NCBI GenBank assembly: GCA_903960515.1
Contig: CAJCBL010000125.1
Span: 1-34,598 of the forward strand
Source: an uncultured Verrucomicrobiota bacterium
Lineage (GTDB): Bacteria > Verrucomicrobiota > Verrucomicrobiia > Opitutales > Opitutaceae
DNA: 34,598 nt
Direction: 5' to 3'
Under the pieces are notes generated by a model. The model was given only the letters and a program-made list of their open reading frames with translations, was not told where the DNA came from and searched no databases. Position numbers and translations under genes: made by a program. Of this stretch, positions 7,928 to 26,001 are shown in pieces; positions within the stretch are counted from its first letter, which is position 1, and each line of letters opens with the position of its first letter.

Positions 7928-8103
7928 GCCGGCAGCCAACGCGGGCCCAAAGCCGGCGGCAACGCGAAAGCCCAGCGCGCGAATTTTCGTTTGTGACTTC
8001 CGCCCCGCTTTACGGCACCACTGCGCCAGCCGCCCCCGGCCCACCGTGCCGGGCAGCTCAACCTCGGCAAACGTGGCCACGTAACCACTCCATCCTTCCC
8101 GGC

Positions 8104-8138
8104 TTCAGCTTTCAGCAACCAGCCTTCAGCCTTCGCCC
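8104..8138. repeat. Heptanucleotide array (TTCAGCC type) directly before asnS
   Basis: Five units in perfect 7-bp register are TTCAGCT, TTCAGCA, ACCAGCC, TTCAGCC and TTCGCCC. One base separates the last unit from the asnS ATG. The array occupies the position where a ribosome binding site would be expected, and there is no Shine-Dalgarno. Confidence 0.75.
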
Positions 8139-8139
8139 C

Positions 8140-9521
<1,382 letters not shown>

Positions 9522-9525
<4 letters not shown>

Positions 9526-9687
9526 GGCCGGGAGCGCTGCCGCCGCTTCGCGCTTTGGCAGTGCATGAACTCCGGCGTCCGCCGTAGGAGCGTGCTTGCA
9601 CGCGATCTGCGCACTGAATCGCGTGCAAGCACGCTCCAACGAAAGAAGGGTTACGGCTAGGGCCGGCTGCGCTGCTGCCGCTTCGCG
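9522..9687. repeat. REPIN inside a composite repeat, next to asnS
   Basis: Two REP palindromes in inverted orientation (9584-9606 and 9618-9640) form a near-perfect 23-bp hairpin with an 11-nt loop. The core is AGGAGCGTGCTTGCACGCGA. The leader GAACTCCGGCGTCCGCC (9567-9583) is shared with the second REPIN in the window. The unit is flanked by imperfect 31-bp direct repeats (9522-9552 and 9657-9687, three mismatches) offset by 135 bp. The left copy includes the asnS stop codon. Confidence 0.85.
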
Positions 9688-10128
9688 TAGTTGCGCACCC
9701 ACGCGCGCGAAATCCCCGCCCACGGCACGCGCTTCGCACCGCGAGCAAGGGCGCCGTGCCCGCCCGCGCCCCTTGTCCGCCGGAGCCGCTTTCGCTAGAA
9801 CGCGAAGCTCCCGGCCCCGAGCAGCGCTTCCGTTAATGCCCCTTGGACTATCATGCGAATGCCCCTACCTACGGCGCCGCTCCAGTTCGAGGGACCCAAG
9901 CAAAGCCGCTTCCTACGCCGGAACGTCCCTCTCCTGCAGCGCCTCTTACATCGGGGGAGCGGGCTTCTTCCTCGCCCCGCGGCGCTCGACGAGACGGGAT
10001 AGCTCCAAGCTGATTGGCATTCGGATGTGGCCGCGAATTGGTCGAGATTCGGGGAAGATTCCTGCGGAACGAGTTTCCTGTTTACTCGCGCCGGGAAACC
10101 CACCTCAATGGCTCCCCTTTCTGGTGCC
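9688..10128. other. Intergenic region before tRNA-Ala, no gene seen
   Basis: Open frames here have no recognisable protein and skewed composition. The stretch around 9945-9985 (GGGAGCGGGCTTCTTCCTCG) weakly resembles a decayed REP. The promoter of the downstream tRNA must lie here, but I cannot point to it. Confidence 0.6.
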
Positions 10129-10297: not shown

Positions 10298-11281
10298 CTA
10301 CCCGAAGGGGTTGTGGCGCAGGGCGCGAAGCACGTTGAGTCCGCCCCAATCCGTGACGGGCAGCAGCGGGCGAGGGGCGCTGCGTTGGCGAGCGCCATAG
10401 CGGCGGCGATACGCAGCCAGATGCAGGGCAACAAAGGCCTGAGAGCCCAGCACGGCCGAATCGGTAAAGTAGCGTACCCGGCAGCGCAGCACCGTGGAGA
10501 GAGGCAGTCTACCCTTTTGCCGCAGCACCTCGGCGAAGGCCTTTGGGGCGATGGTGGTGCCGGCAAGGCGAGGGGCAGAACCAGTGCCGAACAGCCCGAT
10601 ACGATGCGCGGCATGGGCTTGTTGCCACTTCCCGCCATGCACCTGACACAGGCCGGCCCGGGCGGCGGGATTGCCGGCTACAGCCTCACCGTAGCCGCAG
10701 AATCGATAGTCCTTGGGGTCGGAGGCCATGCCGGCGCGCACGGGGTTGAGGTCGATGTAGAAGGCCATCGTGCGCAAGGCGTTGCTGGAGCACTCCACCA
10801 GCACGGACTTGAAGCGCTCGGCAAAGAGCGTGCCATAGCGGCCGTGGGCCTTGTTGAACCAGATGGCGAAACGCTGCTTCAAGAGCTTCATGAAGTTGGA
10901 GACATCTCCCATGAGCGTGAGCTGACGCCGCCGCCAGGCCTCACCCTCGGGGCCGCCGGCCACCAACTGCGCTTCGATCACCTCGATACGCGCCTGCTGG
11001 TACTTGGTCGGTTTGGGGTGGAGCAGACGGTAGCGGCGCAGCAACTCGGTATCCGGCGGCGTGATCTTTTGCGGTACGCGCACCAAGATGTGGAAGTGGT
11101 TGCTGAGGATGGCGTAGGTGAGGATTTCGACTCCGCAAAACTCCGCCACCAGCCAAAGCTGACGTCGCAAGATTTCCTTGGCCGGATCGTCGATGAGGCG
11201 CTCCCCCGCCACCACGCGCGTCATGCAGTGGTAGGCTGCCGGCCCCTCCTCAGGCGAAACCTTGATACGCCCCAGCCTCAT
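10298..11281 (-). CDS. REP-associated tyrosine transposase (RAYT, Y1 HUH family)
   Basis: RAYTs are single-copy, IS200/IS605-related HUH endonucleases thought to mobilise REP/REPIN sequences by cutting single-stranded DNA. The 327-residue protein has the HUH motif as HFH (residues 62-64, in SNHFHILV). The likely nucleophile is Y175 in YIDLNPVRAGM, matching the position of the IS608 TnpA tyrosine. The conserved GRYGTLFAERFKS segment lies between them. A C-terminal extension of about 120 residues is longer than in simple IS200 transposases. No IS boundaries, terminal repeats or partner TnpB are visible. A 23-bp tandem repeat lies 44 bp upstream of the start, and a REPIN lies about 0.65 kb beyond the 3' end. 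Confidence 0.88.
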   Translation of the reverse strand: MRLGRIKVSPEEGPAAYHCMTRVVAGERLIDDPAKEILRRQLWLVAEFCGVEILTYAILSNHFHILVRVPQKITPPDTELLRRYRLLHPKPTKYQQARIEVIEAQLVAGGPEGEAWRRRQLTLMGDVSNFMKLLKQRFAIWFNKAHGRYGTLFAERFKSVLVECSSNALRTMAFYIDLNPVRAGMASDPKDYRFCGYGEAVAGNPAARAGLCQVHGGKWQQAHAAHRIGLFGTGSAPRLAGTTIAPKAFAEVLRQKGRLPLSTVLRCRVRYFTDSAVLGSQAFVALHLAAYRRRYGARQRSAPRPLLPVTDWGGLNVLRALRHNPFG

Positions 11282-11324: not shown

Positions 11325-11370
11325 CCGACCTGTCCCTTCTGGTTTCGCCGACCTGTCCCTTCTGGTTTCG
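11325..11370. repeat. Perfect 23-bp tandem duplication upstream of the RAYT gene
   Basis: Two identical head-to-tail copies begin CCGACCTGTCCCTTCTGG (11325-11347 and 11348-11370). From memory, similar GACCTGTCCC strings, or their complement GGGACAGGTC, are common beside Y1 transposase genes in other bacteria. They may be the target or end sequences of this transposase. Confidence 0.8.
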
Positions 11371-11397: not shown

Positions 11398-11486
11398 GGC
11401 GCCAGCCTCACGAGCCCGAACACTACCTCACCGAGATGCACTTCAAGTGCCCGACCACGATCTTCAACTACCCGAAGGAGATCAGA
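11398..11486 (+). pseudogene. Relic fragment of a second asnS
   Basis: The segment translates to YLTEMHFKCPTTIFNYPKEI, against [20 protein letters not shown] in the intact asnS at 9154-9213. About 64 bp align with roughly seven mismatches, some of them silent. The preceding 25 bp (GCGCCAGCCTC...) also resemble asnS, with gaps. Similarity stops on both sides and no start, motif or stop remains, so it cannot be functional. The mixture of silent and conservative changes suggests a diverged homologue rather than a fresh copy of the neighbouring gene. Confidence 0.75.
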
Positions 11487-11539
11487 CACTGGAGCCAAAC
11501 CACCGGCTGCAAGGGCAGCCGGTGGTGCGGAGGCTACTG

Positions 11540-15214: not shown

Positions 15215-15237
15215 ATCGCGAGCAAGCTCGCTCCTAC
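15215..15237. repeat. Single REP palindrome
   Basis: The core ATCGCGAGCAAGCTCGCTCC plus TAC is identical to the copies in the array at the left end of the window. The CACCGGAGT extension is missing. It lies 12 bp beyond the stop of the zinc-ribbon gene, so once more a REP sits at a gene 3' end. Confidence 0.8.
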
Positions 15238-25393: not shown

Positions 25394-25448
25394 CGGCCCT
25401 ATACCGCCTGCGCTGGAGAAGATACCAAAGCGAGCACATCGTCTGACG

Positions 25449-25612
25449 GCATGGCCACGGCTGAGCCGTGACCATTCAGCAGGAGCGTGCTTGCACGCGA
25501 TTCAAAGCGCAGATCGCGTGCAAGCACGCTCCTACGGCGGACACCGGAGTTCGTGCGCTTCCAGAACGCAAAACGGTACGTTTGCATGGCCACGGCTAAG
25601 CGGTAACCATTC
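25449..25612. repeat. Second REPIN inside a composite repeat
   Basis: The inverted REP pair (25481-25501 and 25513-25535) gives a perfect 21-bp hairpin with an 11-nt loop, the same loop length as the REPIN beside asnS. The right side carries the extension GGCGGACACCGGAGTTC, the complement of the leader at the asnS copy, so the two REPINs lie in opposite orientation. Flanking direct repeats of 29 bp (25449-25477 and 25584-25612, three mismatches, GCATGGCCACGGCT...) are offset by 135 bp, exactly as at asnS. Confidence 0.85.
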
Positions 25613-26001
25613 GGTCGAGAGCCCAGAGCAGAGCGCCGAGGGCCTGTTCACCGAGCAAGCAGAAGCACTCGCGGTATTGTCCCGCCGCAGACGCCAGAAT
25701 GCAGCAGCATTGAAGCGGCCCGGCCCCGTTGCCGCGATTTCCCGGCTAACTGGTCAACGACAATTAGAAACCGCCATGCCGGCAGGGGGGCGCTAACCCT
25801 GCGTTTCCCCGCGCAGGTCGAGCATAGGCCCTTGGGTTCCTCTCGCGTCACCTTGGGGGCGCCACGCAAGCCCTTCCTTTTCACGGCCGCCTTCCGAGAG
25901 CAGCGGGCCCGCTCGCCTCCAAAACCGCCGTCTCCCCTTCGGGTTTTCGCCGCCTCGATCAAGGGTTGCCACCGCCCAAGCGGTCCTCTCTGCTGGTCAC
26001 C
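25613..26001. other. Intergenic region upstream of the GHKL gene
   Basis: I see no further gene here. The GHKL gene's promoter must lie within this stretch, but no clear -10/-35 pair or Shine-Dalgarno is visible. Confidence 0.5.

Follow-up and report, generated by a model that had tools for sequence, protein, structure and literature searches.

A MITE family that very probably carries REPINs as cargo in an uncultured Verrucomicrobiota bacterium

Introduction

The spread of REPINs is usually discussed in terms of RAYTs. As described in the excerpts consulted of PMC3116915 and PMC3733652, REPINs (GTAG-type REP dimers) consist of two inverted REPs, form one long hairpin and are present in many copies per genome, and the former excerpt also describes tandem clusters of REPINs with their flanks. 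According to section 7 of PMC3733652, most REPs seem untied to other repeats, but long palindromes enclose some REP dimers. Mobile elements of another kind, those of the IS1031 group (IS5 family), are described in the consulted part of PMC12016507 as preferring TNA targets and producing a 3-bp duplication.

The two REPINs considered here show the paired, inverted REPs and high copy number of the described systems, and differ from them in that repetition continues for 19 and 63 bp past the REPIN and ends in MITE tips. With the REP dimers of A. variabilis, T. roseum and H. neapolitanus they share a regular frame of other repeated sequence (PMC3733652); the frames in those three species are described as insertion targets, and section 7 of that paper mentions neither a TNA duplication nor sister MITE subfamilies. 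TNA targets, a 3-bp duplication and short inverted ends are shared with MITEs of the IS1031 group, a likeness drawn from the group description in the same part of PMC12016507 rather than from an element-to-element comparison. The differences are the tip, which is unlike that of ISLrh (the sole IS1031-group tip compared), and the REPIN cargo. Among the literature matches listed, searched as titles and the beginnings of abstracts, no REPIN inside a TNA-type MITE was found, the closest being PMC3733652; REP dimers inside longer palindromes are already in print (PMC3733652), and the framing of a REPIN by a TNA-type MITE appears to be new.

The window is the whole stretch of DNA analysed, 34,598 nt of contig CAJCBL010000125.1 (assembly GCA_903960515.1, Opitutaceae). 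Its two REPINs are very probably cargo of a single non-autonomous MITE family, with a tip-to-tip array of elements accounting for the site at 25449 and probably a local joining event for the site at asnS.

Results and Discussion

Paired direct repeats in the window

Each REPIN is flanked by a pair of direct repeats (Table 1). The pair at asnS (D17, 31 nt) and that at the second site (D18, 29 nt) are both 90% identical, and the repeat listing of the window confirms the observation of an earlier note on this DNA that the offset is 135 bp in each. The note was also right that the REPINs lie in opposite orientation, their 95-nt bodies being inverted copies (pair I1, 9543–9637 against 25482–25576, 89% identity), and the leader it had seen at both, GAACTCCGGYGTCCGCC, belongs to the long arm of one repeat family. 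The direct repeats of the two sites are unrelated to each other in sequence. Both REPINs form hairpins of two inverted REPs (inverted repeat I23 in the 25449 copy), and the RNA fold z-scores of the two copies, −6.16 and −5.57, are strong, as expected of a REPIN.

Table 1. Features of the two REPIN-bearing sites in the window
Feature	Position	Strand	Evidence
Class II tRNA synthetase, D/K/N type (named asnS in the earlier note)	7993..9525	+	Pfam PF00152, E 2.5e-64
31-bp direct repeat, copy 1; starts one base before the asnS stop codon	9522..9552	+	repeat listing, alignment
Second MITE copy, consensus positions 21–135; right tip GGTTACGGC intact, left 20 bp missing	9543..9657	+	consensus alignment
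REPIN of the asnS copy	9586..9638	.	inverted repeat, alignment, fold
31-bp direct repeat, copy 2; in flank unmatched elsewhere in the fetched segments	9657..9687	+	repeat listing
29-bp direct repeat, copy 1 (tip 13 + TNA 3 + tip 13)	25449..25477	+	repeat listing, flanks
Right-tip remnant of an adjoining element that has the same ends	25449..25461	+	tip junction listing
Left TNA triplet, TGA	25462..25464	+	flank comparison
MITE copy with REPIN, 132 bp (oriented like the consensus, with the long arm first)	25465..25596	-	tips and length; L001
Left terminal inverted repeat GCCGTGACCATTC	25465..25477	+	tip comparison; mostly paired with the right tip in the fold
REPIN of the 25449 copy, two inverted REPs	25481..25533	.	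inverted repeat I23, hairpin fold
Right terminal inverted repeat GCATGGCCACGGC	25584..25596	+	tip comparison
29-bp direct repeat, copy 2	25584..25612	+	repeat listing, flanks
Right TNA triplet, TAA; middle base unlike the left	25597..25599	+	flank comparison
Left part of a different MITE subfamily (141–148 bp) with the same ends, joined via TAA	25600..25660	+	matches elsewhere

Other repeats were seen in the window. Positions 1–576 hold a 189-bp tandem repeat (3.1 copies), each copy with a REP of a different type (GAGCAAGCTCGCTCCTAC) that recurs at 15220, and two 23-bp units stand in exact tandem at 11325–11370.

A MITE family around the REPINs

The family that contains both REPINs has members mostly of 131–136 bp with 13-bp terminal inverted repeats (GCCGTRACCATTC...GCATGGTYACGGC). 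When oriented, the copies show one anatomy, namely GCCGTRACCATTC, a short arm, the REPIN, a long arm and GCATGGTYACGGC, flanked on both sides by a triplet, in most cases TNA; L004, L026 and the asnS row (106 bp, paired with a wrong right tip) were left out of this comparison (30 loci). The family consensus, built from 26 copies, is 135 bp long and places the REPIN (53 bp) off-centre between arms of 63 and 19 bp.

A search of the genome (5.52 Mb, 379 contigs) with 25400–25650 returned 544 candidates, of which the best 40 were scored. The best 39 apart from the query's own row are 80–92% identical to the 25449 element, and many matches span query positions of about 62 to 201, i.e., 25461 to 25600. 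The tip pattern GGTNACGGCTNAG matches the genome 153 times, against 6 times for its reversed control, and the stricter GGTYACGGCTNAG, with Y for the first N, gives 146 matches against 5.

Copies were collected from fetched segments (346,891 bases including the window) gathered by REP, tip, element similarity or transposase. Selection by tips, length and REP alone, giving no preference to equal triplets, yielded 62 REP-bearing elements with good tips between 120 and 150 bp, and 52 of these fall at 131–136 bp (12 of 131, 3 of 132 and 23 of 135 bp). In a second analysis, in which ends could carry up to 3 mismatches and equal triplets were preferred, 146 exact ends gave 95 paired elements (65 with a REP, 30 without) and 29 unpaired ends.

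Terminal inverted repeats, target duplication, short length and many copies are all found, as in a MITE, and the length suggests an element without coding capacity. Tips, length, TNA flanks and copy number are directly observed, as are subfamilies that share the tips and lack the window-type REPIN. A DDE-type transposase acting on the tips would have moved the whole unit into C-TNA-G sites, duplicating the TNA, and the REPIN would have been amplified together with the MITE.

These results support the proposal of the earlier note that a mobile or amplifying unit larger than the REPIN is present, this being a MITE of about 131–136 bp that has ends and a target duplication of its own. The 135-base spacing is mostly the length of this MITE with its hairpin cargo. 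Its equality at the two sites is no coincidence in kind, one element family and one length class being involved, and is partly a coincidence in detail, arising as 132 + 3 at 25449 and as 115 + 20 at asnS.

The 25449 site

At this site the series reads as the right tip of a neighbour, TGA, a whole element, TAA and the left tip of another element. Positions 25442–25464 weakly match the tip of a 173-bp element in C242 (23 letters, 91%, E 0.003). For 25597–25660, 39 matches besides itself were found in the fetched segments, several of them in 141–148-bp elements, and 22 of the 24 matches listed end at 25659 or 25660. With a right tip on one side of the copy and the left portion of an element from another subfamily on the other, the 29-bp repeat is made of 13 + 3 + 13 bp, and the 132-bp element plus the 3-bp TNA gives the spacing of 135.

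Joins of this kind recur in the family: 19 of the 146 exact ends meet a next tip with at most 2 mismatches, at 17 separate junctions (an end in C372, with three bases at the contig edge, was excluded). Long flanking direct repeats are rare, reaching a score of at least 15 in 4 of the 95 paired copies, of which the 25449 copy ranks first; among the top rows listed, 9 direct repeats reach at least 15 letters when mismatches are allowed.

The equal offset and the real direct repeats at two loci had led the earlier note to suggest a fixed-length unit amplified in tandem and cut at differing points, and Pseudomonas is known to have REPIN units in tandem together with their flanks (PMC3116915, in the excerpt consulted). 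That explanation is extremely improbable here. TRF found no tandem array at either window site, and a head-to-tail 135-bp array was rejected on this ground and on the rarity of long direct repeats. The repeats of the two sites do not resemble each other, the asnS flanks are unmatched elsewhere in the fetched segments, and just the 19 ends counted above run into another full tip. Among REP loci unselected for tips, those with two tips cluster at 126–137 bp (15 of 19), so the cut points are identical rather than differing.

The asnS site

The MITE copy next to asnS arrived at the same spacing in another way. It resembles the family from 9543, consensus position 21, as far as the intact right tip at 9657, and most genome matches of this copy are limited to about 9543 and the tip, with a few starting at 9536–9542 or reaching 9672. 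The first 21 bp of repeat copy 1 are non-MITE sequence that is repeated after the right tip, and its last 10 bp belong to the MITE and are similar to the flank (CCGCTTYGCG). The spacing of 135 is therefore the sum of a 115-bp element and a 20-bp locus-specific duplication. Neither 9501–9542 nor 9658–9860 has a match elsewhere in the fetched segments.

Two other origins were considered and rejected. A variant left tip used by other copies is not supported, none of the best 40 of 511 candidates matching before 9536. A second MITE directly downstream of asnS would have to lie in 9657–9860, where the best alignment to the consensus has a weak score of 23, above the 95% point (21) and below the maximum (29) of 300 shuffles, and falls near 9774–9805, away from the tip. 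The left 20 bp of the MITE have instead given way to a second copy of the asnS 3′ flank, with the junction at CCGCTTYGCG. This replacement is a separate local event, probably driven by microhomology or by one-ended joining.

Beyond the Y1 transposase-type gene that follows in the window, the 80 nt at 11411–11490 are 86% identical to 9141–9220 in asnS and probably represent a gene fragment.

Target triplets

MITE copies are flanked by TNA in a C-TNA-G context. Among the 62 REP-bearing elements, 43 have TNA on both sides, and the middle base is identical in 34 of these, compared with a mean of 12.4 and a maximum of 23 in 2000 shufflings; the test was confined to the middle base since T and A hardly vary in these flanks. 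In the 95 paired elements, where pairing preferred equal triplets, identical flanking triplets occur in 49, against 7/95, 2/93, 3/95 and 1/95 at positions further out. Elements without a REP show the same tendency, the middle base agreeing in 15 of the 21 that have TNA on both sides (equal triplets again being preferred in pairing). Of the window copies, that at 25449 has unequal triplets, and that at asnS has TAG on both sides, its left tip being absent.

Of the 62 REP-bearing elements, 58 have C just before the left triplet and 60 have G just after the right one. Part of their segments were fetched with a pattern containing that G; the 30 loci fetched by similarity alone show the same context by eye. 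A TNA target with 3-bp duplication, as in the IS1031 group, is thus found here, and a 5-bp duplication fits as well. The near invariance of these outer bases allows that the duplicated target is the palindrome CTNAG, with the element one base shorter at each end. This refinement, which is compatible with a MITE carrying REPIN cargo, is a tentative possibility to which we give the lesser weight, as we do to its corollary that the mover need not be of the IS1031 type. Nothing decisive speaks against it, the 3-bp and 5-bp readings being inseparable by sequence alone, and the arithmetic of 135 bp is the same under both.

REPIN cargo and REP loci

REP loci unselected for tips came from 405 exact REP matches, of which the first 100 listed formed 70 groups; 52 were used and 18 left out (10 without sequence, 8 near an edge). 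The earlier note had asked whether other REPIN loci have flanking repeats or randomly spaced ones, and the answer is mixed: both tips are present at 19 of these 52 loci, 15 of them in the length range given above, one tip at 16 and no tip at 17. With scrambled tips, the two-tip class had a mean of 0.065 (maximum 3) and the one-tip class a mean of 2.98 (maximum 20), which makes the two-tip class the more secure of the two. The 17 loci with no tip within range show that REPs exist outside the MITE too.

From the other direction, 95 of 97 loci with the long arm exceed the REP threshold, and the remaining two contain REPINs judged by eye to be decayed (8 further loci at segment edges were left out). 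The loop points one way at 84 loci and the other way at 10, with 1 tie. REPIN and long arm move together, and in MITE-borne copies the repeated unit, rather than ending at the REP pair, continues past it to the tips. These counts suggest that the REPIN was already part of the MITE when amplification took place.

The reverse history would make the REPIN itself mobile through a RAYT, the conserved arms being an ancient sequence favoured by REPINs as a target for insertion. The REP loci without tips are consistent with it, as are the REPINs without the MITE seen by eye in the inspected stretches of other genomes of the genus, the presence of Y1 transposase genes, and the REP dimers inserted within longer palindromes in section 7 of PMC3733652. 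No clearly empty arm was seen in segments gathered by REP, tip, similarity or transposase, a collection that empty arms without an exact tip would escape. The near-complete occupancy of the arms, the strongly biased orientation and the TNA duplication at the outer tips make this history very unlikely.

The two modes may also be combined. Tip-sharing MITE subfamilies would then carry REP-type hairpins, REPINs would spread by both a DDE transposase and RAYTs, and the hairpin may aid the MITE, e.g., through folding of the donor strand or access for the RAYT. We regard this dual mobility as rather improbable.

A different flank (about GGACTCGNATTGGTCTCATCTTGAACGCGA) recurs beside some REPs, as noted by eye at C6, C9, C84, C98 and C302 of G000, and is perhaps a further composite repeat.

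Tip-sharing relatives

Elements that share the tips without the window-type REPIN include a cluster of 10 (163–308 bp, six of them at 163–179 bp), two single elements, and those of 141–148 bp, which clustering linked to the REPIN type. Sister elements of about 175 bp at C182, C242 and C315 of G000 seem, by eye, to carry REP-like inverted arms of their own (about TGTAGGGNCGGACCTTGTGTCCG).

Across 200 genomes of the family Opitutaceae, including this one, GGTYACGGCTNAG occurs at most 6 times in any other genome and is absent from 130. A 21-letter tip pattern matched six records of the genome collection, in a scan that may omit the window's own genome and where about 1 is expected by chance on our own estimate and single matches prove little. 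Two of the records, both from Verrucomicrobiota MAGs, contain 163-bp elements with the tips at both ends and a different interior, one flanked by TCA on both sides (L117, 2732–2894) and one similar to it with unequal triplets (L120, 5035–5197). The tip system is therefore probably wider than this genome. The 135-nt consensus had no match in the plasmid collection, and one viral contig gave a single tip-like match, with no partner at up to 3 mismatches beside TNA.

No clean empty site was found in the two other genomes of the genus, whose intergenic DNA does not align. Next to the matching genes no such element adjoins, as far as the contigs reach: asnS of G001 ends without the flanks of the window's asnS, the G002 contig ends inside the gene at asnS, and G002 has no match to the genes of the second site.

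Transposase genes

The genome was searched with the profiles PF01609 and PF01797. No parent transposase with the MITE tips was found among the 9 PF01609 matches and their flanks in this draft of 379 contigs, from which an IS could be lost; none of the 9 has tips adjoining TNA on both sides. Tip-like 11-mers, exact or with 2 mismatches, flank L061 and L066 on both sides away from TNA, about 1 such 2-mismatch hit being expected per locus and motif on our own estimate. One exact tip each lies near the transposase at L063 (791) and L066 (2832–2842), not beside TNA, and these are perhaps MITE remnants.

Y1_Tnp genes form a multi-copy gene family in this genome, with 17 matches, most covering profile positions of about 6–67 and several in frames of about 331 aa. 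Exact REPs were present in the fetched flanks of 4 of the 17, close to the expectation from REP density by our own estimate. The window itself has a Y1 (IS200-like) transposase-type ORF of 327 aa at 10298–11281 on the minus strand.

Implications for REPIN biology

If REPINs have a second vehicle, then REPIN counts in some genomes would reflect bursts of MITE activity, and tests of REPIN-RAYT co-evolution should first separate the copies that are framed by MITE tips. The 25449 site illustrates how insertion of MITEs tip to tip can make long direct repeats that mimic larger tandem units.
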